This document shows positions 1 to 45,022 of a stretch of 64,000 nt of DNA, piece after piece; positions within the stretch are counted from its first letter, which is position 1, and the number at the start of each line of letters is the position of its first letter. The notes under the pieces are model-generated. The model made no database searches. It had not been told where the DNA came from and saw only the letters and a program-made list of their open reading frames with translations. The position numbers and the translations under genes were made by a program. Source of the stretch: Streptomyces sp. 846.5 (GTDB taxonomy: Bacteria; Actinomycetota; Actinomycetes; Streptomycetales; Streptomycetaceae); the NCBI RefSeq assembly GCF_004365705.1, contig NZ_SOBN01000001.1:620001-684000 (forward strand), written 5' to 3'.

Positions 1-385
1 GTTCGGCACCGGCTCCTCCCGCGAGCACGCGGTGTGGGCGCTGCTCGACAGCGGCTTCCGGGCGGTGATCTCCTCCCGGTTCGCCGACATCTTCCGTGGC
101 AACTCGTTGAAGAACGGTCTGCTGACGATCCAGCTCGACCAGGGCACCGTGGAGGCGCTCTGGCGACGGGCCGAGGAGTTCCCCGCCGAGGCCGTCACGA
201 TCGACCTGGAGGCCCTGGAGGTACGGGCGGGCGACCTCCGGGTCGGCTTCGAACTCGACCCCTACCACCGGATGCGGCTGCTCGAAGGGCTCGACGAGGT
301 GGACGCCACGCTACGGCACGAGGCCGCGGTCAGCGCCTACGAGGCAGGCCGCCCGGCCTGGATGCCCACGGTCGCGGCCGTCTGA
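1..385 (+). CDS. leuD: 3-isopropylmalate dehydratase small subunit-like protein, 5' end missing
   Basis: The open frame enters from base 2, so the N-terminus lies before the window. The visible 127 residues begin with the LeuD signature GSSREHAVWAL and continue with GFRAVISSRFADIFRGNSLKNG, the swivel region of the aconitase family small subunit that positions substrate over the iron-sulfur cluster of LeuC. LeuC/LeuD isomerise 2-alkylmalate to 3-alkylmalate. A MFS gene starts 33 bases downstream, followed by a biosynthetic cluster. The protein is therefore either the housekeeping leucine enzyme at a cluster edge or a dedicated copy for alpha-keto-acid chain extension. The family call is secure; the role is inferred from context. 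The large subunit would be expected just upstream, outside the window. Confidence 0.85.
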   Translation, partial: FGTGSSREHAVWALLDSGFRAVISSRFADIFRGNSLKNGLLTIQLDQGTVEALWRRAEEFPAEAVTIDLEALEVRAGDLRVGFELDPYHRMRLLEGLDEVDATLRHEAAVSAYEAGRPAWMPTVAAV

Positions 386-418
386 GCCATCCGCCACCCA
401 CTCGGAACGGAGGACCCG

Positions 419-1651
419 ATGTCCAGCGCCGTACGGAGATTCACCGCGTACCGAATCCTGTCCCGGAGCTACTTCCACCTGACGATCCTCTTCGTCTTCT
501 TCTACGACCGGGGGCTGTCCCTGCCCGGCGTCGAGGCCGTCCTCGCGGTCTACGGGGCCACCCTGGCACTGGCCGGGCCCGTGGTCCGGCCCGTCGCCGC
601 ACGGCTCAGTCTCACCGCCGCGGTCTCCCTCGGCGAGGTGCTCAAGGCCGTCGGACTGCTGCTCCTCGCCGCTCCCGGCGGCATACCGGTGGCCGTGGTC
701 GCCCAGGTGGTCGCGGCACTCGGCTTCTCCCTGGCCAGCGGCACCGACTCGGCGCTGCTCGCCGAGATCTGCCGCCGCGACGGCGAGGACGCACGCGCCT
801 GGGAGAGCCGCAGCGGCTCGCTCACCTTCATCGCGGCCCTGGTCGCCGGGGTCGCGGGCGCCGTCCTCTACCAGGCGAGCCACAACGGCCCGTTCGTGCT
901 CTCCGCGGTCATGTCGGCGCTGGCCGCCGCCATGGCCGTGAGCGCCGGCCGCGGCCTGGACCGCGGCTCCGCCTCGGCGGCGCCGCGTCCCGCCGGCGCG
1001 GCCCCGGCCGCCGACGGCCGGGCCGGAGGCAATCCGCACGCCGGAGCGCTGCGCCGCTGGGCCGCCTTCTACACCATCGTCCGCGGCTTCGTCCTGGCCC
1101 TCTTCATCGGCTTCCTGCCCTACCTGCTGTACGTCCGGCTGCACGCCGCGCTCCCGGTCTTCGGGCTGATCCTCGGCTCGTACACACTCAGCGGCTACTT
1201 CAGCGCCCGCTACGCCAAGCTCCTGACCGAGCGGGTCGGCGCCAGGGGGACGGCTCTCGCCGCCATCGTGCTGACCGGTGCCGGGCTGCTGATCCTGCTC
1301 TGGCAGGAGAACGTCGCCGGCGCGGCCGTCGCCACCGTGGCCCTCGGCCTCGGCGTCGGCGGGGTACGGCCGATGGTGGTGGGCGCGGTGAACGACATCC
1401 TGGCCGATCGCCCGGCCACCGAGCGGGCGGCGGCGCTGCGCGCCAACGAGGCCAGGTTCGCTGCCTTCAACACCGTGCTGATCCTGCTGGCCGGGCTGGC
1501 CCTGGACCGGATCCCCTTCTCCCATCTGCTCGCCGGGCTCGCCCTGGGCTACCTGCTGGTGGCCGGTCTGGTCCTGGCGACGCTGCCGCGCGGCAACGAC
1601 GCGGCGGCAGAACCGGCGGCCGCGCCCGCTCCGGCAGCCACAGCACGCTGA
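419..1651 (+). CDS. MFS transporter (probable cluster exporter)
   Basis: A 410-residue, strongly hydrophobic protein with about 12 predicted membrane segments in two halves, split by an Ala/Pro-rich cytoplasmic loop at roughly residues 180-205. It starts at an ATG 7 bases after a GGAGG-like site. Position between leuD-like and biosynthetic genes suggests export of, or self-protection against, the cluster product. There is no motif that fixes the substrate. The C-terminus is an Ala/Pro tail ([13 protein letters not shown]). Confidence 0.75.
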   Translation: MSSAVRRFTAYRILSRSYFHLTILFVFFYDRGLSLPGVEAVLAVYGATLALAGPVVRPVAARLSLTAAVSLGEVLKAVGLLLLAAPGGIPVAVVAQVVAALGFSLASGTDSALLAEICRRDGEDARAWESRSGSLTFIAALVAGVAGAVLYQASHNGPFVLSAVMSALAAAMAVSAGRGLDRGSASAAPRPAGAAPAADGRAGGNPHAGALRRWAAFYTIVRGFVLALFIGFLPYLLYVRLHAALPVFGLILGSYTLSGYFSARYAKLLTERVGARGTALAAIVLTGAGLLILLWQENVAGAAVATVALGLGVGGVRPMVVGAVNDILADRPATERAAALRANEARFAAFNTVLILLAGLALDRIPFSHLLAGLALGYLLVAGLVLATLPRGNDAAAEPAAAPAPAATAR

Positions 1652-1726
1652 CCCTCCGGCCCGCCCTCCCCCACTGACCATCGCCCCAGTAGTCGACACC
1701 ACATCTCCACCGAAAGGCACACCATC

Positions 1727-2149
1727 ATGGCCGACATCCGCCAGCGCGCCGCCATCACCAACTCCCTGGCCCAGAAGATCCTGGCCGCCGCGCTCAAGGC
1801 CGCGGAGGAACTGGGCATCCCCTCCGCCGTGGCCGTGGCCGACGAGTCCGGGCACCTCAACGCCTTCGCCCGGATGGACGGAGCGCCCCTGCTCGCCATC
1901 GACATCGCCCAGGACAAGGCCTACACGGCCGCGGGCTTCGGCCTAGCCACCGACGCCTGGCACGAGTTCATCAAGGACGACGCGCCCCTGGCCGCCGGCG
2001 CCCCGACCGGCATCCGCCGGCTGATCGTCTTCGGCGGCGGCCTCCCCATCACGGTGGACGGCCAGCTCGTCGGCGGCATCGGCGTCTGCGGAGGCCACTG
2101 GTCCGACGACATCAAGATCGCTCAGGCCGGGCTCGCCGTCCTCGACTGA
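1727..2149 (+). CDS. GlcG/HbpS family protein
   Basis: 140 residues, the usual length of the HbpS/GlcG (DUF336) family, which includes the haem-binding HbpS of Streptomyces and many proteins encoded next to oxidoreductases. Typical pieces are ITNSLAQKILAAALKAAEELG at the N-terminus, AVADESGHLNAFARMDGA in the middle and the glycine-rich GGGLPITVDGQLVGGIGVCGG at the C-terminus. There is no signal peptide, unlike secreted HbpS. It lies between the exporter and the ACP gene, so a cofactor-binding or accessory role in the pathway is possible. Biochemical function in this family is poorly defined. Confidence 0.7.
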   Translation: MADIRQRAAITNSLAQKILAAALKAAEELGIPSAVAVADESGHLNAFARMDGAPLLAIDIAQDKAYTAAGFGLATDAWHEFIKDDAPLAAGAPTGIRRLIVFGGGLPITVDGQLVGGIGVCGGHWSDDIKIAQAGLAVLD

Positions 2150-2264
2150 ACCGCACGGGGCGAGCCCTGTGCACGGGACCGGATCCGCCGGCCCTCCCGG
2201 GCCGACGGATCCGCGTCCCCCTTCCCCGCACCCCACTTCCGACAGCCGAAGGAAACCGATCGAC

Positions 2265-2561
2265 ATGACAGTCGCCGCGAACGACACCACCAGCGAAGCC
2301 ATCAGCGCCCACCTGAAGACCTTCATCGTGGACGCGCTCTTCATCGACATCGATCCCGCGGCCATCGCGGACGACTCGCTCCTCGGCACCGAGATCGGCG
2401 TCGACTCGCTCGGCTTCGCCGAGCTCATGGCCCATCTGGAGGACGAGTACGCGATCACCGTCTCGGACGGCGAGTTCCTGCCCGAGAACTTCGCCACCGT
2501 CGAGCGCATCGTGCAGCTCGTCCGCAGCAAGCTCTCCGGCTCCGCGCCGAAGGCCGGCTGA
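2265..2561 (+). CDS. Acyl carrier protein
   Basis: 98 residues when started at the ATG at 2265, which has a GAAGGA site 11 bases upstream; an in-frame ATG at 2169 would add 32 low-complexity residues and is unlikely. The phosphopantetheine attachment motif GVDSLGFAEL is present, with the modified serine at about residue 48, in a four-helix carrier protein of normal length. It is a free-standing carrier and would hold the growing acyl chain for the ketosynthase and reductases encoded directly downstream. The C-terminal tail SGSAPKAG is disordered-looking. Confidence 0.9.
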   Translation: MTVAANDTTSEAISAHLKTFIVDALFIDIDPAAIADDSLLGTEIGVDSLGFAELMAHLEDEYAITVSDGEFLPENFATVERIVQLVRSKLSGSAPKAG

Positions 2562-2587
2562 CACCACTTCAGCAGGGGGAGCAACGC

Positions 2588-3028
2588 ATGATCGTCAATC
2601 TGGAGCACTCGGTCCTCGACGCCGAGGTGGACGAGTTCGACGTGGTCCACTTCTCCAACTACGTCCGCTGGTACGGCGCGGCGCTCAAGGAGTTCCTCGC
2701 CCGCTACAGCGAGCCCGCCGGATTCTTCGGGGACGGTGTGGAGGTCCGGGTCGCAAGGGTTCGCGCCTCCTACAGCAACTCCGCCCGACGCGACGACGTC
2801 GTGTCGGTCTCCATCCGCCGGGTGGAGAACCTCGGCCGCTCCCTGCGGCTGTACTTCAGGGCCGAGGCCAGCGGCGAATTGCTGGCCCGGGCCGAGCTGA
2901 ACCTGGTGTTCGTCCGCACCGACCCGTACGGCCTGGTGCGGGTACCGGCGGCGCTGGCCGCCCGGCTCGCCTCCGACCAGGCCGAGAAGACCGCCGCCGA
3001 ACAGCCGACGGTCGGGAGCGCGGCATGA
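2588..3028 (+). CDS. Hotdog-fold acyl-CoA/ACP thioesterase-like protein
   Basis: 146 residues with the 4-hydroxybenzoyl-CoA thioesterase type N-terminus: FDVVHFSNYVRWYGAALKEFL corresponds to the family pattern around the active-site helix. The C-terminal strand ends in FVRTDPYGLVRVPAAL, as in FadM/YbgC-type enzymes. The usual catalytic Asp of YbgC (in the DxxGHVxN pattern) is not obvious; V/H occupies the region. The stop overlaps the ketosynthase ATG by 4 bases, so the two are translationally coupled. Likely roles are release of the acyl chain from the ACP or editing. Family moderately certain, catalysis untested. Confidence 0.7.
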   Translation: MIVNLEHSVLDAEVDEFDVVHFSNYVRWYGAALKEFLARYSEPAGFFGDGVEVRVARVRASYSNSARRDDVVSVSIRRVENLGRSLRLYFRAEASGELLARAELNLVFVRTDPYGLVRVPAALAARLASDQAEKTAAEQPTVGSAA

Positions 3029-4179
3029 ACGCCGCGACCGGGCCCCGGGTCGCCGTTGCGGCCGCGGGCGCGGTGACCTGCCTGGGCGGATCCGTCGAGG
3101 CGACCTGGGAGGGACTGCTCGCAGGCCGCAGCGGCCTCGGACCGGTAGGCCTCTTCCCGGTCGAGGGGATCCGCAGCGCCATCGGCGGCGTCGTCGACGG
3201 GCTCCCCGGCCTGCGCGGCGGGGAGCGGCTCGCCCGGCTCGCGGTGCAGGCGCTCCGGCCCGCCCTGGCACGGGCCGAACAGCAGGGCCTGACCCGTGAC
3301 CAGCTGCGCGACGCCTGGATCGTGCTGGGCGTGAGCCTCGGGGACATCTTCGAACAGGGCGGCCCCGACGTGGAGCTCGACCACTTCTGGGAGGACGTCG
3401 CCCTGGAGCTGGGCCTGACCGGTCCGGTCGTCCCGTTGAGCTCGGCCTGTTCCTCGGGGACGGACGCCGTGGCCTACGGGGCGGAACTGATCGTGACCGG
3501 AATCGCCGACGTGGTGCTGGCCGTGGGCCTGGACTCACTGGAGCCCAACAAGTTCTCCGGCCACGCGGGACTGAAGACCATGTCCCCGGACCGCTGCCGC
3601 CCCTATGACGCGGAGTCCGACGGCACCACGCTCGCCGAGGCCGCCTGCTGCCTGGTGCTGGCCGGCGAGGGCCTGGTGGCCGGTGCCGGTCGGCCGCTCG
3701 GCTGGGTCAGGGGGTGGGCGGCGAGCACCGACGTGGACTCGCTGACCTCGCCCGACATGTCGGGCCGCAATGCCTCCCGCATGATCGGCGAGGCGCTGGC
3801 GATGGCCGGCGGCAGCGTCGGCCAGGTCGGATACCTCAACGGCCACGGGTCCGGAACGCCCGTCAACGACGAGATGGAGGCGGCCGTGTACCGGGCCGCC
3901 TTCCCCGCCGGCGACGTCCCGGTCTCGGCCACGAAGGGCGCCCTGGGCCACACCCTCGGCGCCACCGGCACGGTCGAGGCGCTGGCGACCCTGCTCGCCC
4001 TGCGCGACCGGACCGTTCCGCCGACCGCCGGGCTGCGCGGCACCCATCCGCGCTGGGACGGCATCCCGGTGGTGATCGACCGTCAGCTGGCGCTGGACGA
4101 ACGGCCCCTGGGCGTCAGCGTCACCTACGGCTTCGGCGGGGCCAACTCCTGCCTGGTGCTGAGCGGCGGTGCCCGATGA
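3025..4179 (+). CDS. Beta-ketoacyl-ACP synthase (FabF-like, type II)
   Basis: 384 residues, a little shorter than FabF (about 410). The condensing triad is visible: Cys142 in SSACSSG, His274 in LNGHGSGTP (normally NAHGTSTP) and His309 in KGALGHTLGATG with the partner Lys304. The end motif GFGGANSCLVL is typical. It would extend the ACP-bound chain by decarboxylative condensation. The sequence around the second motif is unusual (GSGTPVND), arguing for a specialised rather than housekeeping enzyme. Start and stop both overlap neighbours (ATGA), placing it in one operon with the thioesterase and the reductase. A second, Cys-less KS-like protein is encoded at 7693-8457. Confidence 0.88.
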   Translation: MNAATGPRVAVAAAGAVTCLGGSVEATWEGLLAGRSGLGPVGLFPVEGIRSAIGGVVDGLPGLRGGERLARLAVQALRPALARAEQQGLTRDQLRDAWIVLGVSLGDIFEQGGPDVELDHFWEDVALELGLTGPVVPLSSACSSGTDAVAYGAELIVTGIADVVLAVGLDSLEPNKFSGHAGLKTMSPDRCRPYDAESDGTTLAEAACCLVLAGEGLVAGAGRPLGWVRGWAASTDVDSLTSPDMSGRNASRMIGEALAMAGGSVGQVGYLNGHGSGTPVNDEMEAAVYRAAFPAGDVPVSATKGALGHTLGATGTVEALATLLALRDRTVPPTAGLRGTHPRWDGIPVVIDRQLALDERPLGVSVTYGFGGANSCLVLSGGAR

Positions 4180-5252
4180 CCCGCACCGCCGTGATAACCG
4201 GCGCCGGCGGGCTGGTCGGCTCCGAACTCACCGCGGCCCTGCTGCCGCACTTCGACCGGGTGCTCGCGCTGACCCGGGGCGAACCGGACCTGCCCGCGCT
4301 GCGGGCCGCCGTCGCCTCGGCCCGGCCGACCACCGATTCCGGGGAGCTCCGCCTGGAACGGCTGGACGCATTACGGGCCGACGCGCTCACCGAGGGGAGT
4401 CTCGCCGCGCACGGCGCCGACACGGTGGCCCAGGTCTGGAACGTCGCGGCCGAGCTCTCCTACGACAGCCGGCGGCTGCGCGAGACGGTGGACGCCAACA
4501 CGGCGGCGCCGCTGCGGCTGCTGGAGCTCTGCCATCCGAAGGAACGTTTCTTCCAGGTGTCGACGGTCGGCGTCACCGGCCCCGGACAGCGCGGACTGCG
4601 ACGGGTCGTCAGAGAGGAACCGCTCTGGGAGATCGACGCGGTGAACCCCTATGTCGCCTCCAAGCTCTTCGCCGAACACCTGCTGAAGGCCCGGGGGGAG
4701 CAGCTCGGGCACCCGGTCAGCTGCCTGCGGATCGGATCGGTCCTCGGGCCGAGGAACCGGGCGACCGGGCGCCGCAACAAGGCCGGCTACTTCACCCTCG
4801 CCGAGATGGCCACCCGTGCCCTGCGCACCGGGCGGCCGCTCTCGCTCGACATCGACCCGGACGGCACCCCGCCGCTGGCCCATGTCGAGGAACTGGCCGA
4901 GGCCTGCGCGGAGCTCGCCCGGCGAGCGGCCGCCGGCGCCGCCGTCCACACCCACTACCACCTCGGCGACCAGCAGCTCAGCAATCTTCGGGCGGTCGAG
5001 GCCGTCAACGCCGAACTGGGACAGGAGGTCCTGCGGATCGGCGCTCCGGTCACCGCCCTGGACCGGGCCCACGCCACCGTCAACGGCGACAACCTCGCGT
5101 TCATGGACTGCGCGTTCCGCTTCGACCGCACCGTGCTGGAGTCCCATCTGCCCGCTGCCGCCGCACCGCGTGTCGACGCGCCGTCCTACGCCGGCTTCCT
5201 GGCCCGCGAGATGCGCGCCGGGAGCGTCCGAAGCCCGAGGAGGGCGGTATGA
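4176..5252 (+). CDS. Extended short-chain dehydrogenase / NAD-dependent epimerase-type reductase
   Basis: 358 residues. The N-terminal Rossmann motif TGAGGLVG and the YVASKLFAEHLL segment (the YxxxK catalytic pair) identify an extended SDR of the thioester-reductase/sterol-dehydrogenase type. RIGSVLGPRNRATGRRNKAG and the C-terminal part resemble the terminal reductase domains that release thioester-bound acyl chains, but a simple epimerase or ketoreductase role is equally compatible. ATG overlaps the ketosynthase stop; the stop overlaps the next ATG. The tail after about residue 340 is basic and probably disordered. Confidence 0.75.
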   Translation: MTRTAVITGAGGLVGSELTAALLPHFDRVLALTRGEPDLPALRAAVASARPTTDSGELRLERLDALRADALTEGSLAAHGADTVAQVWNVAAELSYDSRRLRETVDANTAAPLRLLELCHPKERFFQVSTVGVTGPGQRGLRRVVREEPLWEIDAVNPYVASKLFAEHLLKARGEQLGHPVSCLRIGSVLGPRNRATGRRNKAGYFTLAEMATRALRTGRPLSLDIDPDGTPPLAHVEELAEACAELARRAAAGAAVHTHYHLGDQQLSNLRAVEAVNAELGQEVLRIGAPVTALDRAHATVNGDNLAFMDCAFRFDRTVLESHLPAAAAPRVDAPSYAGFLAREMRAGSVRSPRRAV

Positions 5253-5653
5253 GCAGCCCGTACACGGAGACGGCGGCACCCTGTGTGCTCGGCGCTCCCC
5301 TGACGCTGGAACCGGTGCCCGACGGGACCGGCGGCTGCTCGGCCGAGCTGGAGCTCGACCCCGGCTGGCCGATCTTCGCCGAGCACTTCCCCGGCAGGCC
5401 GATGCTGCCCGGATCGCTCACCGCCCAGCTGATGGCCACCGTGGCGGCGGCCGTGCCCGGGGCGGAGCCGGGACCACGGCCCGCCTCGCTGCGCGGGGTC
5501 CGGTTCCAGGCTCCACTGGTGCCGCCCGCCCGGATCCGGGTGACCGCGGCACCGGACCCGGCCGACGGGGACACCGTGCGGTGCCTCGTCCTGCTGCTCG
5601 GACCCGCCGGGGACACCGTCGCGGCTCGTGGGGAGGTGGTCCGGCATGGCTGA
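5249..5653 (+). CDS. FabZ/FabA-type hotdog protein with altered active site
   Basis: 134 residues. IFAEHFPGRPMLPGSLTAQ matches the dehydratase helix of FabZ (HFPGRPxxPGVLxxE): His46 is kept, but the catalytic acid is replaced by Gln60. Downstream strands (VRFQAPLVPPARIRV) fit the hotdog fold. In FabZ the Glu (Asp in FabA) is needed for dehydration, so this copy may be slow, use another residue, act in a heteromeric dehydratase, or serve a binding role. Another hotdog-like protein is encoded at 7298-7684 and could be its partner. Starts on an ATGA overlap. Confidence 0.75.
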   Translation: MSSPYTETAAPCVLGAPLTLEPVPDGTGGCSAELELDPGWPIFAEHFPGRPMLPGSLTAQLMATVAAAVPGAEPGPRPASLRGVRFQAPLVPPARIRVTAAPDPADGDTVRCLVLLLGPAGDTVAARGEVVRHG

Positions 5654-6416
5654 GCCGACCGCTGCCGGTCCGCCGGCATCCGACGCTCCCGGGGCACGCC
5701 CGGTCGCCATCGTCACCGGCGGCGCCCGCGGCATCGGCCGCGCCGTCGTCGAGCAGCTGGTGGGAGCCGGATTCGACGTCGAGTTCACCTATCTGACGTC
5801 GAGTGATCCGGCCGAGAAGCTGGTCGCGGCGATGGGCGGAAGGGCCCGCGCCTCCCGGGTGGACGGACGCGACCCCGACCAGGTCGCCCGGTTCGTCACG
5901 GACGTGGCCGCACGCGGCCGGCTCCAGGCGCTGGTCAACAACCAGGGCCTGACCGTGGACCGGCTGGTCTCCAAGGTGACCTGGACCGATCTGGAGGATC
6001 TGCTCGACTCCAACGTCGGCAGCGCGGTGACCTTCACCCACGCCGTCCTTCCGCACCTGATGCGCGGACGCCGGGGCGACGTGGTCTTCGTCTCCTCCCA
6101 GGCCCGGCGCAACGCCCGGGTCGGCAACACCATGTACGGGGTCTCCAAGGCGGCCCTCACCCGCTACGCCGCCAACCTCGCCCTGGAGGGCGCCAGGTTC
6201 AACGTGCTGGCCAACGTGGTGGAACCCGGCTTCGTGGAGACCGATCTGACCCGAAGCGTCCTGGAGGGCGCGGCCCGGCAGAAGTACCTGCTGGAGATCC
6301 CGCTGCGCCGGCTCACCCGGCCGCGGGACGTCGCCGAGGTGGTCGCGGCTCTGCTGCTGCGCCGCCCGTCCCTGGTCGGCGCCGTGATCCCGGTCGCCGG
6401 AGGGGCCCAGCTGTGA
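5646..6416 (+). CDS. FabG-like 3-oxoacyl-ACP reductase
   Basis: 256 residues from the ATG at 5646, which overlaps the previous gene by 8 bases; the upstream ATG at 5628 lies deeper inside it. TGGARGIG (residues 24-31) binds the dinucleotide. The catalytic set is Ser150/151, Tyr164 and Lys168 (YGVSK). The usual NNAG motif is NNQG. The C-terminus VAALLLRRPSLVGAVIPVAGGAQL is the typical FabG end. The predicted role is reduction of the beta-keto group formed by the ketosynthase upstream. Confidence 0.85.
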   Translation: MAEPTAAGPPASDAPGARPVAIVTGGARGIGRAVVEQLVGAGFDVEFTYLTSSDPAEKLVAAMGGRARASRVDGRDPDQVARFVTDVAARGRLQALVNNQGLTVDRLVSKVTWTDLEDLLDSNVGSAVTFTHAVLPHLMRGRRGDVVFVSSQARRNARVGNTMYGVSKAALTRYAANLALEGARFNVLANVVEPGFVETDLTRSVLEGAARQKYLLEIPLRRLTRPRDVAEVVAALLLRRPSLVGAVIPVAGGAQL

Positions 6417-6453
6417 GCATCCGACCGCGCTCGTCCGACGAGGGGAAGCAGAG

Positions 6454-7305
6454 ATGACCACCGCAGAACAGACCGCGGCCGTCCGGTCGACCGGACTGCT
6501 CGCGGGCCGCCGCGGGCTGGTGCTCGGTGTGGTGAACCAGCGCTCCATCGCCTGGGGAATCGCCGAGCGACTGGCCGCGGAGGGCGCCGAACTGGGGTTC
6601 ACCTACCGGAGCAGATCGGCCGGGCTGTGGCTGGAACGGGCCACGCCCCGGCTCGGCGGCGCCTCCTGGCTCGGCCGCTGCGACGTCACAGACGACGCCG
6701 AACTGGCCGGACTCGGAACCGACTTCGCCCGCAGCGCGCCGGCCGGCGCGGACTCCGCCCCGACGATCGACTTCATTGTGCACGCCGTCGCCCACGGCGA
6801 CCGGGAGGAGCTCGCCGGCGGGCTGGCCGCGACCAGCCGCAAGGGGTTCACCGAGTGCATGGAGTCCTCGGTGTACTCGCTGATCGGGGTCGTCCAGGCG
6901 CTGCGCCCGCATCTGTCGGAGCGGGCGAGCATCCTCACCCTCTCCTACCTCGGATCCGAGCGGGTGTGCCACGGCTACAACGTGCTGGGGGTGGCGAAGG
7001 CCGCGCTGGAGTCCTCGGCACGCTACCTGGCCGCCGAACTCGGTCCGCACGGAACCAGGGTGAACGTCCTGTCGGCCGGGCCGATGCGGACCCTGGCCAC
7101 CTTCGGCCTGCCCAACTTCTCGGCGTCGCTGGCCCAGCGCGCGGAACGGAGTCCACTGGGACGGTCCATCACCACGGCGGACGTCGCCGGAACCGCGCTG
7201 TACCTGCTGAGCGACCTGTCGTCGGGCGTGACCGGGGAGACCGTGTACGTCGACGCGGGCTACCACATCATGGGCACCTGGCCGGGTGATCCCGGCGATG
7301 AGTGA
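6454..7305 (+). CDS. Enoyl-ACP reductase, FabI-like
   Basis: 283 residues. GLVLGVVNQRSIAWGIAERL is the atypical FabI dinucleotide-binding region, and the active-site Tyr-x6-Lys is present as YNVLGVAK (Tyr175, Lys182), with the second conserved Tyr165 in SYLGSER. The substrate loop SAGPMRTLATFGLPNF and the end VTGETVYVDAGYHIMG also match FabI. It would saturate the alpha-beta double bond, so the assembly line can make reduced chains, unlike aryl-polyene or cinnamoyl systems. RBS AGGGGAAG precedes the ATG. It might also give tolerance to a FabI-directed product, a less favoured reading. Confidence 0.85.
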   Translation: MTTAEQTAAVRSTGLLAGRRGLVLGVVNQRSIAWGIAERLAAEGAELGFTYRSRSAGLWLERATPRLGGASWLGRCDVTDDAELAGLGTDFARSAPAGADSAPTIDFIVHAVAHGDREELAGGLAATSRKGFTECMESSVYSLIGVVQALRPHLSERASILTLSYLGSERVCHGYNVLGVAKAALESSARYLAAELGPHGTRVNVLSAGPMRTLATFGLPNFSASLAQRAERSPLGRSITTADVAGTALYLLSDLSSGVTGETVYVDAGYHIMGTWPGDPGDE

Positions 7306-7684
7306 ACGCGACGATCCGGGGACCGGCTGGTTCCTGGGGCTGTGCGGTCCGCTCGCACTGGGGGCGGACGGCGACGGCACCGCGTCGGCACCGTACCTCC
7401 CGCCGCCGGGCTGTCCGGCGGACGCCGGAGCGGCGCTGGCCCTGGAGGCCCTGCACCAGATCGCCTGCCGACTGGCCGCCGCCGAGCGCGGGGTGGACCG
7501 CTGCGTGCCCGCCCGGCTGGTGGAGTACCGCCCGGCCGCTACCGCCGCCGATGCCGGTGCTGCGGTGGCCGGGGTGCTCCGGGCCAGGGTCCTGCGGTCC
7601 GGGCGCCTCTCGACGGTGGAGGCCTCGCTCGATTTCGGCCCCACGACCGCCCACGCAACCCTCTGCACCCAGGAAGTGAGGTGA
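7298..7684 (+). CDS. Small hotdog-like protein of the cluster (hypothetical)
   Basis: 128 residues from the ATG at 7298, overlapping the FabI-like gene by 8 bases. There is no strong motif. The C-terminal half (VLRARVLRSGRLSTVEASL, then AHATLCTQ) has the strand pattern of PaaI/FabA hotdog proteins (ARVxRSGR..xxVEV...AxAT), so I place it tentatively in that fold. The N-terminal part is Ala/Gly/Pro-rich and lacks an HFPG-type active-site motif. Its position between the enoyl reductase and the KS-like gene suggests an accessory dehydratase subunit or thioesterase. The function is not established. Confidence 0.5.
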   Translation: MSERDDPGTGWFLGLCGPLALGADGDGTASAPYLPPPGCPADAGAALALEALHQIACRLAAAERGVDRCVPARLVEYRPAATAADAGAAVAGVLRARVLRSGRLSTVEASLDFGPTTAHATLCTQEVR

Positions 7685-7692
7685 AGGTGACC

Positions 7693-8457
7693 ATGAGCGC
7701 ACTCGTCTTCAGCGGCGTGCCCGGCGTCTACCGGCTGGACCGGATCGCGGTGCTCGCCACCCCGGGCCGGTCGGACGCGGTACGCGCCATCGTGCCGGGA
7801 ACCCCGGTCACCGAGGTGCCGACGGCCACGCTCCGGGCCCGGCTCGACCCGGCGTCACGTCTGGCCGAGCTGGCGGCGGCCGCGCTCACCGCGGAGCACC
7901 CGCTCACCGGCGATCCCGGCCGGCGGGGGGTCTTCGTCGCCTCCCGCCGCGGGAACCAGGAGTCGGTCCGGCGTTTCGCCGGCTCGCTGTCGAGCGGCAG
8001 GCGAAGCCCCGTCACCTTCTCGGTGGCCGGGTACAACATCGTCGCGCAGAGCGTGGCCAGGGCGCTGCCCGCGAACGGACCCTCGGTGGTGCTGGCCGGC
8101 CGGCGGGCGAGCCTGGACGGCGCGCTGCTGCTCGGTGCGCTGCGGCTGTACTCCCGGGCGATCGACACCGCCGTGGTGGGCGTGTGCAGCTGGGAGCCGG
8201 GCGGCGACGGCGTGCTGAGCGGGGAGGGTGTGAGCGTGATGGTCACCCTGGTCCGGGCGGCCGCCCTGCCGGAAGCCGAGGAACCGCAACGGATCGACCC
8301 ACGGGCCTCCTTCGCCGCCGTCCCGGCCGGGCCGCCCGAACGGGCCGGGCTCTCCTCCGAGGACGCCGCCGCGCTGCGACGGATCCGCTCCGCCTCGAGC
8401 AATGCCGCCCCGAGCAATGCCGCCCCGGGCCGAACCGTGCTGACCGGTGTGCGATGA
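7693..8457 (+). CDS. Ketosynthase N-terminal-half protein without catalytic Cys
   Basis: 254 residues from the ATG at 7693 (strong AGGTGAAGG site; in-frame GTGs at 7681 and 7687 are alternatives). RGVFVASRRGNQESVRRF and the segment ending SVVLAGRRASLDGALLLGAL follow the N-terminal lobe of beta-ketoacyl synthases, where a normal enzyme reads TACSSSLxAL; here the Cys position is Arg. There is no C-terminal lobe with the two histidines. It resembles the stand-alone KS N-terminal-domain proteins of aryl-polyene-type clusters and, loosely, chain-length factors. A structural partner of the KS at 3025-4179 is plausible. The C-terminus carries a duplicated SNAAP peptide. Confidence 0.6.
   Translation: MSALVFSGVPGVYRLDRIAVLATPGRSDAVRAIVPGTPVTEVPTATLRARLDPASRLAELAAAALTAEHPLTGDPGRRGVFVASRRGNQESVRRFAGSLSSGRRSPVTFSVAGYNIVAQSVARALPANGPSVVLAGRRASLDGALLLGALRLYSRAIDTAVVGVCSWEPGGDGVLSGEGVSVMVTLVRAAALPEAEEPQRIDPRASFAAVPAGPPERAGLSSEDAAALRRIRSASSNAAPSNAAPGRTVLTGVR
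8398..8427 (+). repeat. 15-bp tandem duplication inside the KS-like gene
   Basis: AGCAATGCCGCCCCG occurs twice without a gap (8398-8412, 8413-8427) and encodes SNAAPSNAAP near the C-terminus of the KS-like protein. It is in frame and probably a recent slippage event in a disordered tail. Confidence 0.9.
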
Positions 8458-9851
8458 CGGCCCACTGGATCCACCCCGACGCCGAGCTGGTCGAGCACCG
8501 GGACGGCCGGACGCGCACCCTGGGCAGCGCCGACCTGCTGGAACTGGTCCGGCTGCGCGCAGAGGAGTGGAACCGGCTCGACCTCGCCCCGGCCGCGCGC
8601 GTGATCGTGGCCACCGGCAGCCGCCTCGGCACCCTGCTGGACGTCGCCGCCGCCTGGGAGGCCGGGCTGGTCCCGGTTCTGCTCTCCGACTCGCTGGCGC
8701 CGGAGAGTTGTCGCATCCTCAGCGCGCACACCGCTGCCGCCGCCGTCCGGGCGACTCCCGCGGCGGCCCGGAGCTGGGCCGGGGCAGCCGCACGAACCGT
8801 CGGCAGCAGGGATCCGGGGGCGGTGCTGCTCGACCTCCGGGGCCACCAGGCGCTCCCGGAGCAGCCCGCAGCCGACCCGCTGGGCGAACCGGCTCTCGTG
8901 CTGGCCACCTCCGGCAGCACCGGCCTGCCCAAGGCGGTCGTGCACCGCCGGTCGAGCCTGTTGCGCAACGCCGCGATGCACTGGTCGAGCGTCGGTGAGC
9001 CGGAGCCGGGCGAGCGCTATCTGCTCTCCCAGTCCCTCCACTTCTCCTCCGCGTTCGTCTGCGGCGTGCTGGGCGTGCTCGCCAGGGGTATGCAACTCTC
9101 GCTGCTGGAACCGCCGTTCTCGGTGGCGGCGTGGCGCGACGCGGCCGCGCACAGCGAGGTCACCCACACCGCGCTCACGCCGCATCTGCTGCTGCGCATC
9201 CTCTCCGCCGGGACGGGCATGCCGGGCAGTCTCCGTCAGGTCACCGTCGGGGGCGACCGGCTGGGGCGCACCGCCGTCGGCGAGCTGCGTCGCAGCGGTG
9301 TGCGGGAGGTCTTCGCCACCTACGGACTCACCGAGGCGGGTCCCCGGGTCGCCACCAACCATCTCGACGGGGACCCCGACGGCTGGGACACGCTCGGCGA
9401 ACCCCTGCCGGGCGTGCGACTCCGGCTGGCGGAGCACTCCGACGGACCGGGAGAACTCCTGGTCAGCACCCCCACGGCGCAGGCCGGCCAGTACCGGGAC
9501 GGAGCGTTCAGTGCCTGGCCGGAAGGGGTCGACGTGCCCACCGGCGACCTCGGCGAGCCGACCGCGGACGGCACCGTCCGACTGGTCGGACGGGCGCGCC
9601 GGGTGGCCTCGGTCTCCGGCGAGAAGGTCTACCTCGGACTGGTCGAGCGCGTGCTCGCCGAACACCCGGCGGTGGGCGCGGTCCGGGTCGACACCGACCC
9701 GGACGGCCTGCTCGCGGCCCAGGTGCTGCCCCGGAACGGCATCGACCTCGACGCGGCGGAGCTGCGGAGGTGGTGCCGCGGCCGGCTCCGCGCCGTCGAG
9801 ATCCCCCACCGGCTCACGGCCGTGAGCGCGGCCGTCCAACTGACCAAATGA
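8454..9851 (+). CDS. Acyl/aryl-CoA or -ACP ligase (AMP-dependent, ANL family)
   Basis: 465 residues starting on an ATGA overlap. Core motifs are present: ATSGSTGLPKAVVHR (phosphate loop, A3), TYGLTEAG (A5), TGDL (A7) and GRARRVASVSGEKVYLGLVE (A8 hinge). It is shorter than typical ligases (500-550), missing part of the N-terminal lobe. The sequence ends VQLTK with no further residue, so the A10 catalytic lysine, usually followed by 10-20 residues, is the last amino acid. It would activate a starter or free acid as acyl-AMP and load it on CoA or the ACP encoded at 2265. The substrate cannot be read from sequence. Confidence 0.82.
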   Translation: MTAHWIHPDAELVEHRDGRTRTLGSADLLELVRLRAEEWNRLDLAPAARVIVATGSRLGTLLDVAAAWEAGLVPVLLSDSLAPESCRILSAHTAAAAVRATPAAARSWAGAAARTVGSRDPGAVLLDLRGHQALPEQPAADPLGEPALVLATSGSTGLPKAVVHRRSSLLRNAAMHWSSVGEPEPGERYLLSQSLHFSSAFVCGVLGVLARGMQLSLLEPPFSVAAWRDAAAHSEVTHTALTPHLLLRILSAGTGMPGSLRQVTVGGDRLGRTAVGELRRSGVREVFATYGLTEAGPRVATNHLDGDPDGWDTLGEPLPGVRLRLAEHSDGPGELLVSTPTAQAGQYRDGAFSAWPEGVDVPTGDLGEPTADGTVRLVGRARRVASVSGEKVYLGLVERVLAEHPAVGAVRVDTDPDGLLAAQVLPRNGIDLDAAELRRWCRGRLRAVEIPHRLTAVSAAVQLTK

Positions 9852-9913
9852 CCCCCGCAGAGCCTGCGGAACCCGCAGCACCCGCAGAACCCGCCCAGAG
9901 AGCAGAGGATCCC

Positions 9914-10606
9914 ATGAGCATCGCCGACTCGCCCGCCTCCACCGCGAAGCAGCCAAACGTCGTCAGCCCGACCCATCTCAACCTGCGGAAGGCCGCAGGA
10001 CTGATCCGCAACGGCGGCGTGGTGGTGGCCCCGTCCGACACCAATCTGGCGCTCACCCTGGACCCCTGGAACCGCGCCGCGGTGGAGCGGGCCTTCGCCA
10101 TCAAGCGCCGCCCGCCGACGTCCCCGCTCACCCTGTTCGTCCGCACCCCTCAGGAGTGGCGCGACTACACCGTCGTCCCGGAATCCCTGATCGTCCCGGT
10201 GGAGCGGCTGACCGAGGCGTTCTGGCCCGGGCCCTTCAACATCATCCTGCCCCGCAACACCCGGGTCCCCGACCATCTGGTCTGCGGGGGCCCGACCGTG
10301 GCCATCGGCTGCCTGTCCAACCCGACCATGCAGAGCCTGCTGGAGCACACCGGCGGACCGGTGGCCATGACCTCGGCCAACCTGTCGGGCCAGGCCGACG
10401 GGGTGCTGGTGGACCTGGACCTGGCCGTGGCACAGATCGGCGACTCGGTGGACATGGTCATCCGCGGCGGCAACCAGGGGACGACGGCCTCCTCCACCAT
10501 CGTCACGCTGGCCGACGGCCGCTTCCGGATCCAGCGGGCCGGTGACATCACCGCGGACCAGGTGCGCGCCGCCCTGGGGGACCGGGCCGAGCTGCTGACG
10601 GACTGA
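9914..10606 (+). CDS. YrdC/Sua5 family protein (threonylcarbamoyl-AMP synthase-like), divergent
   Basis: 230 residues from the ATG at 9914 (AGAGG site 5 bases upstream); an ATG at 9848 overlapping the ligase stop would add a repetitive Ala/Pro/Glu leader. Family marks are the KxR-type IKRRPPTSPL, WPGPFNIILPRN, MTSANLSG and the SSTIV segment near the end. The N-terminal PTETVYGL box of tRNA-modifying Sua5/TsaC is changed to PSDTNLAL. YrdC enzymes make carbamoyl-type adenylates from an amino acid, bicarbonate and ATP, and YrdC domains also occur in antibiotic O-carbamoyltransferases. As the last gene of this operon it is likely a pathway enzyme, not the housekeeping copy. The role is inferred. 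Confidence 0.78.
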   Translation: MSIADSPASTAKQPNVVSPTHLNLRKAAGLIRNGGVVVAPSDTNLALTLDPWNRAAVERAFAIKRRPPTSPLTLFVRTPQEWRDYTVVPESLIVPVERLTEAFWPGPFNIILPRNTRVPDHLVCGGPTVAIGCLSNPTMQSLLEHTGGPVAMTSANLSGQADGVLVDLDLAVAQIGDSVDMVIRGGNQGTTASSTIVTLADGRFRIQRAGDITADQVRAALGDRAELLTD

Positions 10607-10697: not shown

Positions 10698-11321
10698 TCA
10701 GCCGACCGCGAGCCGGGAGCCCTCGGGTCGCAGCCCGGCCATGGCCTCCGGGACCAGCAGGCTCGGCAGCAGCAGCTCCCACAGCTGGGTGATCCGGCGG
10801 CCGAGGTCCGCCCGGCCGCTGAGCACCTCCGAGATCAGCTGGATGCCGGTGAACATCCCGACGACGGCCTCGGCGGTGGAGTCGATGTCCACCTCCGCAC
10901 GCAGCTGCCCGATCTCCCTCGCCTGCGCAAGAGGTCCGCGCACCGCTTCGATCCACTGCAGGTACGGCGTCGGGTCCGGGCTGGAGAAGGAACCGTACTC
11001 GATCACGAGTCGTACCGCGCCGCGTGCCACCGGATCGGTCCGCAGCCCCTCGGCGAACATGTGCGACATGTCGATGAGCGCCTGCATCCCCGGGGCGGCG
11101 TCGAAGGCCCCCTCGGTCAGCAGATGCGCCTGCTCCGCCACCACGGCCTTGGCCAGGTGCTCCTTGGAGGGGAAGTGGAAGTAGAGGGCGCCCTTGGTCA
11201 CCCCGGCGGAGGCCAGGATCTGGGCCATGCTGGCGCTGGAGTACCCGTGTTCGGCGAAGACGGCGGCTGCGGCCTGGAGCACGGTCCACCGGGTCTGGAT
11301 GGCTCTCTCCTGCTGTGCCAT
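10698..11321 (-). CDS. TetR-family regulator, gamma-butyrolactone receptor type
   Basis: 207 residues from the ATG at 11321 (GGAGAGGG upstream). The N-terminus AIQTRWTVLQAAAAVFAEHGYSSASM and GVTKGALYFHFPSKEHLA are the characteristic DNA-binding region of ArpA/ScbR-type receptors. The ligand pocket tryptophan found in these receptors has a counterpart at about residue 123 (PYLQW). Such proteins repress cluster regulators and are released by gamma-butyrolactones, or act as pseudo-receptors sensing other metabolites. No AfsA-type synthase lies in the window. The adjacent clusters and the operator-like palindrome 43 bases upstream suggest autoregulation and control of the 1-10.6 kb genes. Confidence 0.85.
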   Translation of the reverse strand: MAQQERAIQTRWTVLQAAAAVFAEHGYSSASMAQILASAGVTKGALYFHFPSKEHLAKAVVAEQAHLLTEGAFDAAPGMQALIDMSHMFAEGLRTDPVARGAVRLVIEYGSFSSPDPTPYLQWIEAVRGPLAQAREIGQLRAEVDIDSTAEAVVGMFTGIQLISEVLSGRADLGRRITQLWELLLPSLLVPEAMAGLRPEGSRLAVG

Positions 11322-11363
11322 GATGCCGCCCTCTCCGTGTCGTTGGCGTTGGGGCGGCCCATT

Positions 11364-11385
11364 AGAAAACCGCACGGTAGGTACA
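11364..11385. promoter_or_regulatory. Candidate ARE-type operator upstream of the receptor gene
   Basis: AGAAAACCGCACGGTAGGTA is centred on the palindrome ACCG-CA-CGGT and sits 43-64 bases upstream of the TetR start codon, in an AT-richer stretch. Autoregulatory elements of gamma-butyrolactone receptors are semi-palindromes of this size and spacing. Assignment is by symmetry and position only. Confidence 0.45.
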
Positions 11386-11451: not shown

Positions 11452-12423
11452 TCAGCCCTGCTCGCGGGCGGTGCGGTCGGCCTCGCAGCGCTCCGCGAGG
11501 GTCTGCGCCAGCACCACCTCGGTCCCGGCCAGGCCGACCGAGCAGAACAGCGTCACCTGGTCGTCGGCGGTGCGGCCCGGGTGCGCGCCGGCCGCGGCCG
11601 CACCCAGTTCCACCGCCCCCGACGGGTCGAACAGCGAGCCACCGTCCAGGGCGGCCAACTGCGCCCGGGAGTCCGTGCACACCAGGTCGGTCCGGGCCGA
11701 CTCCAGCCGGACGGCGAGATCCAGGGGCACCTCACTCCGCTCGGGCCCCTTCGCCCCCAGGGTGTTCACATGGGTGCCGGGCGAGAGCCAGGACGCCTCG
11801 ACCACGGGCACCGCACTGCTGGTCGCCAGGATCACCACGTCGCGTCCGAGCACCGCCTCCCTCGCGTCGGACGCCACCCGCACCGGTATGCCGAAAGCGC
11901 GTTCGGCGCGGGCCGCGAAGAGCCGCGCACGGCTCTGCCGGCGCGAGAACACCACCGCCTCGGCCAGTTCCCTGACCGGGCGGATCGCCCAGAGCTGCGC
12001 CCAGGCCTGGGGGCCCGCCCCCACCAGTCCGATGGTTCGCGCGTCGGGCCGTGCCCAGAGGTCCACGGCGACCGCGCCGATCGCCCCGGTCCGCCGCACC
12101 CCCAACTCATGACCGGTCACCAGCGCCCGCACCCTGCCACGGGCCGAGTCCCAGAGCGCCACCAGCTGCTCCGAGCCCGCATCGGGCCCGTAGACCCGGA
12201 AGCCGTGGCACTCGCCCTCCAACCGTCCTGCGGTGAAGACCAGTCCGCTCCCCCGCCCGAGCTCCGCCGCGAATCGGGCCGGGGCGACCAGGGCGCCCTC
12301 GTGGTGGGCCACCAGGGCGCGCCGGATCGCGGCGAGAGCGGTGGATGCGTCGAGGTGGATCCGGACATCGGCGTCGGAGAGCAGCAACGGCGAGGTGCTC
12401 GACCGCCCGTGGGGGACCTTCAT
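11452..12423 (-). CDS. Ornithine cyclodeaminase / mu-crystallin family enzyme
   Basis: 323 residues when started at the ATG at 12423; further starts up to 12534 would add an Arg-rich leader. The NAD-binding motif IGLVGAGPQAWAQL and the later THVNTLGAKGPERSE segment are classic for the family (ornithine cyclodeaminase, ketimine reductase, SbnB, alanine dehydrogenase). The early RVYG..../GELTGxRTGA pattern is present as ELGVRRTGAIGAVAVDL. It catalyses NAD-dependent amino-acid deamination/cyclisation or imine reduction. It may supply a cyclic or modified amino acid to the neighbouring cluster; the substrate is unknown. Confidence 0.8.
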   Translation of the reverse strand: MKVPHGRSSTSPLLLSDADVRIHLDASTALAAIRRALVAHHEGALVAPARFAAELGRGSGLVFTAGRLEGECHGFRVYGPDAGSEQLVALWDSARGRVRALVTGHELGVRRTGAIGAVAVDLWARPDARTIGLVGAGPQAWAQLWAIRPVRELAEAVVFSRRQSRARLFAARAERAFGIPVRVASDAREAVLGRDVVILATSSAVPVVEASWLSPGTHVNTLGAKGPERSEVPLDLAVRLESARTDLVCTDSRAQLAALDGGSLFDPSGAVELGAAAAGAHPGRTADDQVTLFCSVGLAGTEVVLAQTLAERCEADRTAREQG

Positions 12424-12589
12424 GGGAATGCACCCAACCACAGCCCCGCCGAAAACGCTTGGACTGCGCGGGCGCAGGCGCGGGACACTTCGGTCTCGGC
12501 CTCCCCGTATCTCGCGCGGGGGCCTACTCGGCATGCCCTGCGACCGGAGCGGTATCCGGCGGGCTGCCGCACCACACCACGGGGGTGGG

Positions 12590-38977: not shown

Positions 38978-40993
38978 CTACTCCCCGCCCGCGGCGGCGT
39001 CGGTGCCCTTGATGTGCCGGGCCGGATTGTGCGCCTGGTCCAGGAGTTGGGCCGCCCAGAGGAAGGTCTGGGTGCCCTCGTGCTTGACCATCCCCGGGCT
39101 CACCCCGAGCCGGAATCCGCCCGGCAGCGGCTTGCCCGTGACCGGGTCGTACGGCAGCACGTCCAGCGGCGACGGCCCCGGGGAAGGGTAGACCGCGCAG
39201 TCGGAGAGCACCGCGACCGGGTACAGGTCGGCCTTGGTGGCCAGCGCCAGCATCTTGCGGTGCATGTTGATCCGCGCGGCCGAGATCACCGCGGCGCGGA
39301 TGTCGGGACGCCAGGTGGGGCGCTCCAGCGCCGGCCAGCGCTCGCCGGGCCGGTGCCGGGCGCCCTGGGGACGCTCGCGCAGCTTGCCGATACCGCCCTT
39401 GACGGTGGCTTTGATCGCGGACAGCACCGCGGCCCGCCCGGGGTCGCGCTGCTTGTGCTGCTCCATCGCGGCCAGGAACTCGGCGGGCGTCATCGCCGAG
39501 TTGACCCCCAGCTCGGCCATGGTGGCCAGGTAGGCGTCCCGCAGCCGCTGGTACCAGGGATCCAGGTAGGGGCCGTGCTCCGGACGCAGCCAGCCCTCCA
39601 ACGGCCTTACGCTGTGCCCGAGTTCGACCGCGTAGGCCACGGTCGGGGTGGCGTACCAGGCCGGGCCCTGCGGCTGCTCGCCGTCCGGCGTGAAGGGGTT
39701 GGGCAGCCGGGCGTCGAAGGAGATGTGCGAGAGGTCGACGAACCAGGACCCGGGCAACGCCTTGTCGAACGCGGGCTGCTGGACGTGGACCGGGGCGCCC
39801 AGGCCGACGTTGAGCCGGTTCGCGGCGGCGGCGAAGGCCATGTTGACGTCCACTCCCACCGCCCAGGGCAGCTCGCACTCGGCATCGGTGAGCAGTTCCG
39901 GATCACGGATCCACTCATAGGCCTCCTCGTCGAGGACCTCGCCCTCGGCCCGGCCGACCGCGACCGGGTGCTCGTCGGGGGCCTCCGGCGGGGCCGGGTC
40001 GACCGCGACCGCGAGCGATCCGGGGACCGGGCCGGACTGCCAGACGCCGTCCTCGCCGCGCACCGCACGCGTGGGCGGGCGCAGCGCGGACATCAACTCC
40101 AGGCCGGAGACGGCGGTGGAGCCGCGCGGGGTGATCACCCGGGTCGCGTACTCGCCCAGCACCTGGGCGAGTTCGGGCGGCGGGAGAGTGGCCGCGTCGT
40201 TCCAGGCGCGGGTGTCCAGCGCTTCCCAGGGCAGTACCGCGAGTTGGACGCATTGGCGGCGGCCGGCCTCGGCCGGCCGGTAGATCCGGGCCCAGGGGCC
40301 GAACCCACGCTTCGTCAACTGCCACTTGGCCTTGGTCAGTTGCTTGATGACGGGGTGGTTGTCGGGGAGCCGCAGGCCGCGCCGGTCCGCGAGTTCCAGC
40401 GGCAGTCCGAGGGACTCGGCGGCCGCTGCGGTGAGGACGACCAGGGGGTCGCCGTCCCGGCCGGAGCGATGCAGCCGGGGCGAGCCGATCTGAGCCTGCG
40501 TCAGAGCCCAGTCCACCAGCGAGGGAAGGGTACGGGCCGGGCAGTCCAGCACCAGACCGCCGGTGCCGTAGGCGGTCCCGTCGCCGTCCAGGACGAGGAG
40601 CGGGCCGTTGGCGAAGCGGCGCTCGGCCTGCTCGTCGGAGGGCGGCACCGGGGCGGGGCGGATGGTCCGCGCGGGCGCGGGGACCGGTGCCGACACCTCC
40701 GCCAGCTCGGGCTCAGGCTCAGGTTCGCGTCCGGCGGGGAAGCGTTGCGCCAGGCCCTCCAGCAGACGGCGGTACGCCTCCCGCTTGGCGCCCGACGGCT
40801 CGCTGCGGCCCTCCTCCCACGCCTGCACCGAGGCCGGACGGGTCCTCAGTGCCTGCGCGACCGCCGCCTCGGTGAGCCCGGCGGCCCGCCGCAACCGCAC
40901 CCGCTCCTCCGGGACCGGCAGGACCTGCCCTGCCTGCACCGCGGCCAGCAGCGCGTCGACGCCCGCGAACAGCGGGTCCGGCTGGTCGGGCAT
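38978..40993 (-). CDS. tap: Telomere-associated protein Tap
   Basis: 671 residues from the ATG at 40993 (GAAGGAGAG site 8 bases upstream). The N-terminal XRE-like HTH (VRLRRAAGLTEAAVAQALRTRPASVQAWEEGRSEPSG, about 28-65) and the rest match Streptomyces Tap, which binds the 3' single-stranded telomere overhang and recruits Tpg. Family proteins are about 740 residues, so this one is somewhat short, mainly in the Pro/Glu-rich linker at about 85-120. Divergent from mug with 105 bases between. Confidence 0.88.
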   Translation of the reverse strand: MPDQPDPLFAGVDALLAAVQAGQVLPVPEERVRLRRAAGLTEAAVAQALRTRPASVQAWEEGRSEPSGAKREAYRRLLEGLAQRFPAGREPEPEPELAEVSAPVPAPARTIRPAPVPPSDEQAERRFANGPLLVLDGDGTAYGTGGLVLDCPARTLPSLVDWALTQAQIGSPRLHRSGRDGDPLVVLTAAAAESLGLPLELADRRGLRLPDNHPVIKQLTKAKWQLTKRGFGPWARIYRPAEAGRRQCVQLAVLPWEALDTRAWNDAATLPPPELAQVLGEYATRVITPRGSTAVSGLELMSALRPPTRAVRGEDGVWQSGPVPGSLAVAVDPAPPEAPDEHPVAVGRAEGEVLDEEAYEWIRDPELLTDAECELPWAVGVDVNMAFAAAANRLNVGLGAPVHVQQPAFDKALPGSWFVDLSHISFDARLPNPFTPDGEQPQGPAWYATPTVAYAVELGHSVRPLEGWLRPEHGPYLDPWYQRLRDAYLATMAELGVNSAMTPAEFLAAMEQHKQRDPGRAAVLSAIKATVKGGIGKLRERPQGARHRPGERWPALERPTWRPDIRAAVISAARINMHRKMLALATKADLYPVAVLSDCAVYPSPGPSPLDVLPYDPVTGKPLPGGFRLGVSPGMVKHEGTQTFLWAAQLLDQAHNPARHIKGTDAAAGGE

Positions 40994-41098
40994 GGTACGG
41001 GCTCTCCTTCGAACGACGGCCTGGCGGCGTCCCTGGATGCTAACGCAGCGGAGAGGCCGTACAACGGACCGCCGGTCGCAGCGGGCAGACTGTCGTCT

Positions 41099-45014: not shown

Positions 45015-45022
45015 CGGGCGGG

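Follow-up and report, generated by a model that had tools for sequence, protein, structure and literature searches.

We analyzed a window of 64,000 nucleotides from Streptomyces sp. 846.5 (contig NZ_SOBN01000001.1, positions 620,001 to 684,000), the first 10,606 positions of which hold all but the upstream end of a biosynthetic gene cluster (BGC) running from leuC to yrdC. The cluster looks like a divergent relative of the ketosynthase-cyclization factor (KS-CYF) type II polyketide synthases (PKS) that make cispentacin and coronafacic acid. We slightly favor the view that it represents a divergent, more reductive member of this branch, whose ring product is tailored by isopropylmalate dehydratase paralogues (LeuCD) and a YrdC-like protein; our best guess for the product is a small carbocyclic carboxylic acid modified by these enzymes. 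What is firm is which genes are present, that they are conserved as a unit, which families they belong to and that their catalytic residues are there. Coordinates are window positions, base 1 lying on the C1:620001 side, where C1, C2 and C3 are contigs of the strain's own genome.

The putative KS-CYF core and its reductive enzymes

Profile scans of the window proteins (Pfam and NCBIfam) recovered every gene type named in an earlier, sequence-only reading of this DNA, all on the + strand. The tight packing described there is also borne out: of the 14 junctions between leuC and yrdC, 8 are overlaps of 4 or 8 bases with the starts as chosen, and the remaining 6 are gaps of 2-115 bases.

For all four 'minimal' KS-CYF genes the best NCBIfam match is an Amc model. 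The acyl carrier protein (ACP; 2265..2561), which carries Ser48, scores 74.4 bits to AmcB (cut-off 80), the next best match being a generic ACP model at 39.3 bits. The KS (3025..4179) has its catalytic residues in place (C142, H274, K304 and H309) and scores 284.7 bits to AmcF (cut-off 325), against at most 186.4 to FabF types. Likewise, the adenylate-forming acyl-ACP ligase (8454..9851) reaches 216.2 bits to AmcH (cut-off 370), with 115.7 for the next best model. The KS half, our candidate CYF (7681..8457), has AmcG as its sole, weak match (23.1 bits, E 4.7e-5, cut-off 80), and its predicted model (pLDDT 75.9) matches KS and chain-length factor (CLF) folds. Since the Amc scores fall below the equivalog cut-offs, the cluster is not to be filed as a cispentacin cluster.

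Cispentacin is an antifungal amino acid with a five-membered ring, and amcB-H form part of the amipurimycin cluster (Hibi et al. 2023, PMC10698177). According to the passages of that paper on the pathway, AmcH loads 2-oxoglutarate, AmcF-AmcG add one C2 unit and close 3-oxocyclopent-1-ene-1,2-dicarboxyl-ACP, AmcE decarboxylates, and the host FabI then reduces; the paper also proposes a KS-CYF subfamily of type II PKS and states that around amcG-type clusters it found no common genes that could replace FabD and FabI. The sequence-only reading could not match our gene combination to a described pathway and expected a short, at least partly saturated acyl chain. The KS-CYF system of cispentacin and coronafacic acid (PMC10698177) is a described relative, and its existence makes a ring more likely than an open chain. 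The idea of an alpha-keto acid fares better as a starter, which is probable given that the best family of the ligase is the 2-oxoglutaryl-ACP ligase AmcH.

The cluster supplies reductive enzymes of its own. The FabG-type ketoreductase (KR; 5646..6416; Pfam adh_short) retains S...Y..K and scores 149.9 bits to TIGR01830, below the cut-off of 297.8. The FabI-type enoyl-ACP reductase (6454..7305) has FabI models as its best NCBIfam matches, up to 256 bits and all below their cut-offs, and its catalytic Y165, Y175 and K182 are present. With such an enzyme inside the operon a reductive step is built in, and the earlier distinction from plain aryl-polyene and cinnamoyl clusters holds. The extended short-chain dehydrogenase/reductase (SDR; 4176..5252) is only weakly thioester-reductase-like (Pfam Epimerase 84.5 and NAD_binding_4 58.0 bits; TIGR01746 56.9 bits, cut-off 213).

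Three hotdog proteins accompany these enzymes. A 4HBT-type protein (2588..3028; Pfam 4HBT_2, 29.8 bits, cut-off 25.5) is presumed to be a thioesterase. The FabA/FabZ-like hotdog (5249..5653; Pfam FabA, 26.4 bits), presumably a dehydratase or decarboxylase subunit, keeps the FabZ-like HFPG histidine stretch and has no Glu at the FabZ place, as read by eye from the alignment; its Skermanella counterpart scores 52.2 bits to FabZ and 19.9 to AmcE (AmcE cut-off 140), both below cut-off. The second dehydratase-like hotdog (7298..7684) was matched by neither Pfam (E 0.001) nor NCBIfam (E 1). It carries LEALHQ but no HFPG, and its AlphaFold2 model (pLDDT 79.6) is hotdog-like, with FabZ 5buy as the best Foldseek match (E 3.4e-4), an assignment consistent with the alignments. 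The two could form a heterodimer, each contributing one catalytic residue.

The substrates, the steps, the ring, the product and whatever LeuCD, YrdC and HbpS do in the pathway are all inferred, and we picture the route as follows. The ligase would load a gamma-keto diacid, most likely 2-oxoglutarate, onto the ACP, and the KS and CYF would add one malonyl unit and close a five-membered ring with two neighboring carboxyls. Reduction of the ring would next fall to the FabI, KR and hotdog dehydratases of the cluster, and its release to either the hotdog thioesterase or the extended SDR. LeuCD, with a changed substrate loop, might add, remove or move water on the vicinal dicarboxylate; YrdC may make a carbamoyl- or threonylcarbamoyl-type adenylate; and the MFS proteins would export the product.

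Several observations weigh against a KS-CYF cyclase. With all four Amc-type scores under their equivalog cut-offs (80, 325, 80 and 370), the starter and the cyclization may differ from those of cispentacin; the Skermanella KS, ligase and CYF counterparts score higher (AmcF 322.4 of 325, AmcH 241.3, AmcG 36.7) and likewise stay below. No AmcC class III aminotransferase was found among the cassette genes profiled, nor is one annotated in Skermanella, and the NCBIfam scan gave no AmcE match for the hotdog at 5249..5653. Moreover, a KR with two dehydratase-like hotdogs is equally expected in a linear reducing type II PKS of the aryl-polyene or ishigamide kind, in which a KS-CLF pair elongates repeatedly from an unusual starter to give a linear, reduced chain. 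Together with FabI these genes amount to a full reductive cycle, and Foldseek ranks the ishigamide CLF (6kxd_B) second and ApeC (6qsp_B) sixth among matches to the CYF, at E 5e-6 and 2e-5 with TM near 0.45 and rmsd 6-8 A. We nevertheless regard a linear product as unlikely: the KS is far closer to AmcF than to FabF types, the ACP and ligase likewise point to Amc, and FabI would saturate the chain, unlike in polyene systems.

Conservation of the cluster in other genomes

The cluster is rare. At E 1e-70 its KS has matches in 3 of 394 genomes of the family, one of the three being the genome of the window itself, and a three-KS profile at the same threshold has them in 1 of 394 genomes of the class, again counting its own; for YrdC at E 1e-50, the window's own genome was the single one to match among 396 of the phylum.

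Where it occurs, its order is kept. Kitasatospora sp. GAS204B has all 15 genes, leuC through yrdC, in collinear order with identities of 62-86%, as does Streptomyces griseosporeus JCM 4766 with 48-84%, and both retain the outer, upstream MFS gene. Streptomyces sp. XM83C has the genes from ACP to yrdC and the outer MFS, a contig end falling just before the ACP. Outside the phylum, plasmid pSM-2 of Skermanella mucosa (Alphaproteobacteria) carries hbpS-ACP-thioesterase-KS-SDR-hotdog-KR-FabI-hotdog-CYF-ligase-yrdC, followed by HlyD and MFS genes. Core identities there range from 34% (SDR) to 60% (YrdC), some covering only part of the protein; the third hotdog was assigned by position and 30% alignment identity. 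The HbpS/GlcG-like small protein (1727..2149; Pfam HbpS-like), whose nearest solved relatives are NahX and EfgA, has a 57% identical counterpart in Skermanella. The MFS transporter of the window (419..1651; Pfam MFS_1) is kept in Kitasatospora and S. griseosporeus and weak in Skermanella (30%). This conservation of order in other genera, and of the core in another phylum, indicates a real unit that did not arise by chance.

Protein searches added Skermanella stibiiresistens SB22, with CYF and YrdC relatives (locus tags N825_09770 and N825_09780), and Streptacidiphilus sp. EB103A, the closest protein-database relative among the matches listed (YrdC 97%, CYF 94%); on this evidence the host strain itself probably belongs to Streptacidiphilus. 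The YrdC search listed the best 120 of 261 relatives, and the CYF searches scored the 7999 and 7998 best candidates. A locus in a Puia metagenome-assembled genome (33% KS identity) was set aside as unrelated; it has several KS genes, and the ligase and YrdC gave no tblastn match there at E 1e-4.

The distribution bears on whether these are simply housekeeping fatty acid and leucine genes, with which the family names do overlap. We give this explanation next to no weight: a separate leuC (C1:2682289) and leuA-, leuB- and Sua5-type genes lie elsewhere in the genome, and copy number together with the rarity of the KS speaks against it. The cluster is thus dedicated, as the sequence-only reading had held.

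LeuCD and YrdC

The start of the operon lies upstream of base 1, where C1:618320-620000 holds a complete leuC (C1:618320-619789) and the 5' portion of leuD. The latter starts directly after leuC at C1:619792, about 210 bases before the window, and its 3' part, encoding the small subunit paralogue (Pfam Aconitase_C), occupies 1..385. The earlier suggestion to look upstream for leuC and leuA-like genes was fruitful for leuC and yielded no leuA-type gene nearby. HMGL-like (leuA-type) matches in the genome are at C1:2703669, C1:5568861 and C3:75313, and the single Iso_dh (leuB-type) match is at C1:2706338, all far from C1:620000. Extension of a keto acid by Leu-type enzymes, also proposed earlier, is therefore rejected as a function of the cluster.

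By profile, LeuC is canonical (716.3 bits to isopropylmalate dehydratase, cut-off 560), and the GSSRE motif is present in the LeuD alignment. Both subunits are distinct from the housekeeping copies of the same three genomes: LeuC is 83-86% identical among the three BGCs versus 70-72% to housekeeping LeuC, and LeuD 76-82% versus 60-63%. A midpoint-rooted tree of 35 rows places the three BGC LeuCs in a single clade (100/100) that falls outside the group formed by the 14 housekeeping LeuCs of the class (98/96). The tree comprises 29 loci, fetched as best matches although 76 of 149 genomes had a match, and six further sequences, so sequences most like the BGC LeuC are favored. In LeuD, 12 columns are fixed in all three BGC copies with a residue absent from 32 housekeeping-type rows. 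Changes within the loop at residues 22-40 include a V where the housekeeping type has A, S or K and an R where it has H, V, D, E, A or Q, and the five BGC residues of this loop occur in none of the 31 rows (of 32) that cover it, so that the loop is not of the housekeeping type. In Arabidopsis the small-subunit loop steers substrate choice, according to the part of PMC7308503 that treats it. A second LeuC match, 64% identical to that of the cluster with one TGA counted in, was seen in another genome of the family (G021 C1:390701-392095), perhaps within a further cluster.

A copy of LeuCD beside a biosynthetic core may also serve self-resistance: the product would mimic isopropylmaleate and inhibit leucine biosynthesis, and the altered loop would exclude it. 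This is the main rival for the role of LeuCD and would not conflict with a KS-CYF ring. On chemical grounds, a ring that bears cis-vicinal carboxylates would resemble isopropylmaleate; LeuC scores as a canonical enzyme, no leuA- or leuB-type gene is near, and the LeuD changes concentrate around the binding loop. On the other side, the tree shows an old paralogue, its midpoint rooting setting the split before the class-level families, and a recent self-resistance duplication of leuC is thereby rejected. Skermanella carries two LeuCD pairs of another type, and use of LeuCD relatives within a pathway has been proposed for pantaphos in the relevant part of PMC7858074. We therefore hold self-resistance to be quite improbable.

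The YrdC/TsaC-like protein (9848..10606; TIGR00057 130.5 bits, cut-off 123.2) belongs to a separate subfamily. Compared with the remaining YrdC-family copies of the three genomes, two of them in the strain's own, it shows 26-37% identity, and it has PSDTNLALT where the usual PTDTVYGLG stands. Among the best 120 of 261 relatives, which include Actinomyces, Paenibacillus, Enterococcus and Halonotius, 114 have P[ST][DE]TN, 6 have PSDCN and none has P[ST][DE]TxYG. In Pa-Sua5 numbering, as given in PMC10321239, K56xR58/S143xN145 are the ATP motifs and T33/S181/R195 the threonine site. When we mapped these positions, KxR, SxN, Ser and Arg were found to be kept, T33 is a Ser and VYGLG reads NLALT. 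With the ATP motifs and two of three threonine-site residues retained, the protein is probably active, and carbamoyl-adenylate chemistry, as in the sequence-only reading, is possible.

Further points count against a tailoring role for these enzymes. The loop enrichment (5 of the 12 BGC-specific columns within 19 residues, 1.2 expected, hypergeometric p 0.0025) treats columns as independent in three copies that share ancestry, and the loop limits were set by us after the loop had been noticed, which makes it a lead and no clean test. In Skermanella, two large and two small LeuCD-family subunits, closest to archaeal/DmdB-type models, adjoin the cluster; they are only 32-35% identical and transcribed divergently from hbpS, and might be a separate unit. 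What actinomycetes and Skermanella share here appears to be a hydro-lyase that acts on a dicarboxylate. Members of the YrdC subfamily are also found apart from such clusters: in the one context read besides Skermanella, a 49% identical relative on a Halobellus plasmid (L053 9989-10627) lies between glmM and an AbrB/VapC-type pair, beside amino-sugar genes that give no help on function, and indicates that the subfamily has another life outside the cluster.

A tentative, rather doubtful extension would make the product the first of a new natural-product class, in which the cluster's KR, its two dehydratases and its enoyl reductase fully process a KS-CYF ring, an aconitase-family hydro-lyase acts on it directly, and a free-standing YrdC protein, with no partner of the Kae1 type, provides it with a carbamoyl or threonylcarbamoyl group drawn from the metabolism of small molecules, not of tRNA. 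In a sharper form, if true, the product would also inhibit leucine or t6A synthesis.

Surroundings and comparison with known systems

A gamma-butyrolactone receptor-type regulator of the ScbR family (10698..11375, -; NCBIfam ScbR 221.7 bits, cut-off 150) bounds the far end of the cluster. On the upstream side, beyond leuC, come an ScbA-type gamma-butyrolactone synthase (5-6 kb before base 1; 332.6 bits, cut-off 200), an SDR, two ScbR-like regulators with scores below cut-off and an MFS gene of the organic-anion type, for which HpaX is the best model (292.8 bits, below its cut-off). Production in this strain would probably be under gamma-butyrolactone control. The Kitasatospora locus also has butyrolactone genes; none was matched within the 40 kb read in S. 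griseosporeus JCM 4766. The ornithine cyclodeaminase/mu-crystallin family gene (11452..12534, -; Pfam OCD_Mu_crystall) is a doubtful member, adjoining the cluster elsewhere only in Kitasatospora among the four loci compared.

Farther away, some 33 kb before the window begins, two neighboring KS-type matches (C1:584840-586821, -; frames of 594 and 480 aa) resemble an ordinary type II KS/CLF pair, perhaps of an aromatic pigment cluster, and C2:529532-707466 is the locus of a giant modular polyketide synthase, with a run of roughly thirty KS domains encoded in very long open frames. Within the window, one protein (43329-46465) joins a receiver domain to a pyridine nucleotide-disulphide oxidoreductase domain, its gene overlapped by one with a histidine-kinase-type ATPase domain, and a predicted 867-aa protein (38978-41581, -) has no Pfam match at E 1e-5.

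None of the papers listed by our literature searches treats this gene combination, and the main text of PMC10698177 mentions neither the four host names nor isopropylmalate nor threonylcarbamoyl; the cluster may be in its supplementary lists. What appears new here is the dedicated KR, the two dehydratase-like hotdogs, the cluster-borne FabI, the LeuCD with divergent loop and the YrdC of a separate subfamily. The cassette resembles a reductive version of KS-CYF that brings a FabI of its own and occurs in two phyla. An adenylating enzyme of the tRNA-modification type travels with the synthase and, in actinomycetes, a leucine-pathway hydro-lyase does too. It points to a metabolite, probably small and polar, and would allow one to test whether a YrdC that stands alone can tailor small molecules, and whether an enzyme of the aconitase family acts on a carbocyclic diacid or is protected from it.

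The cluster shares features with several known systems. The use of LeuCD relatives recalls pantaphos (hvr), where HvrDE are proposed to dehydrate an alkylmalate to a maleate; that is a phosphonate pathway, and the part of PMC7858074 describing it mentions no KS, ACP or ligase. The YrdC protein has the KxR/SxN motifs and fold family of TsaC/Sua5 and of the TobZ/HypF YrdC domains, as the corresponding part of PMC10321239 presents them, but is stand-alone, with TVYGLG replaced by TNLALT, and no Kae1-like partner was recognized among the cassette genes profiled. Aryl-polyene and ishigamide clusters likewise have a KS with a short partner, a KR and a hotdog pair; they differ from this one in its AmcH-type ligase, its FabI and its KS closest to AmcF. 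Coronafacic acid genes cfa1-5, as described in the pertinent text of PMC10698177, correspond in ACP, dehydratase-type hotdog, KS, the CYF-type Cfa4 and ligase. Here, however, no type I PKS stands alongside, since the stretch of C1 from 586821 to 725840 gave no ketoacyl-synthase match other than this KS, and the reductive set and LeuCD/YrdC are extra. The cispentacin system shares homologues of ACP, KS, CYF and ligase, a FabA/FabZ-like hotdog, a thioesterase-type hotdog and the need for FabI. In contrast to it, our cluster contains a KR, a further hotdog, an extended SDR, HbpS, LeuCD and YrdC, has no recognized AmcC-type aminotransferase and gives Amc scores that are all below cut-off; and whereas cispentacin synthesis borrows the FabI of the host, here the enzyme is cluster-borne.

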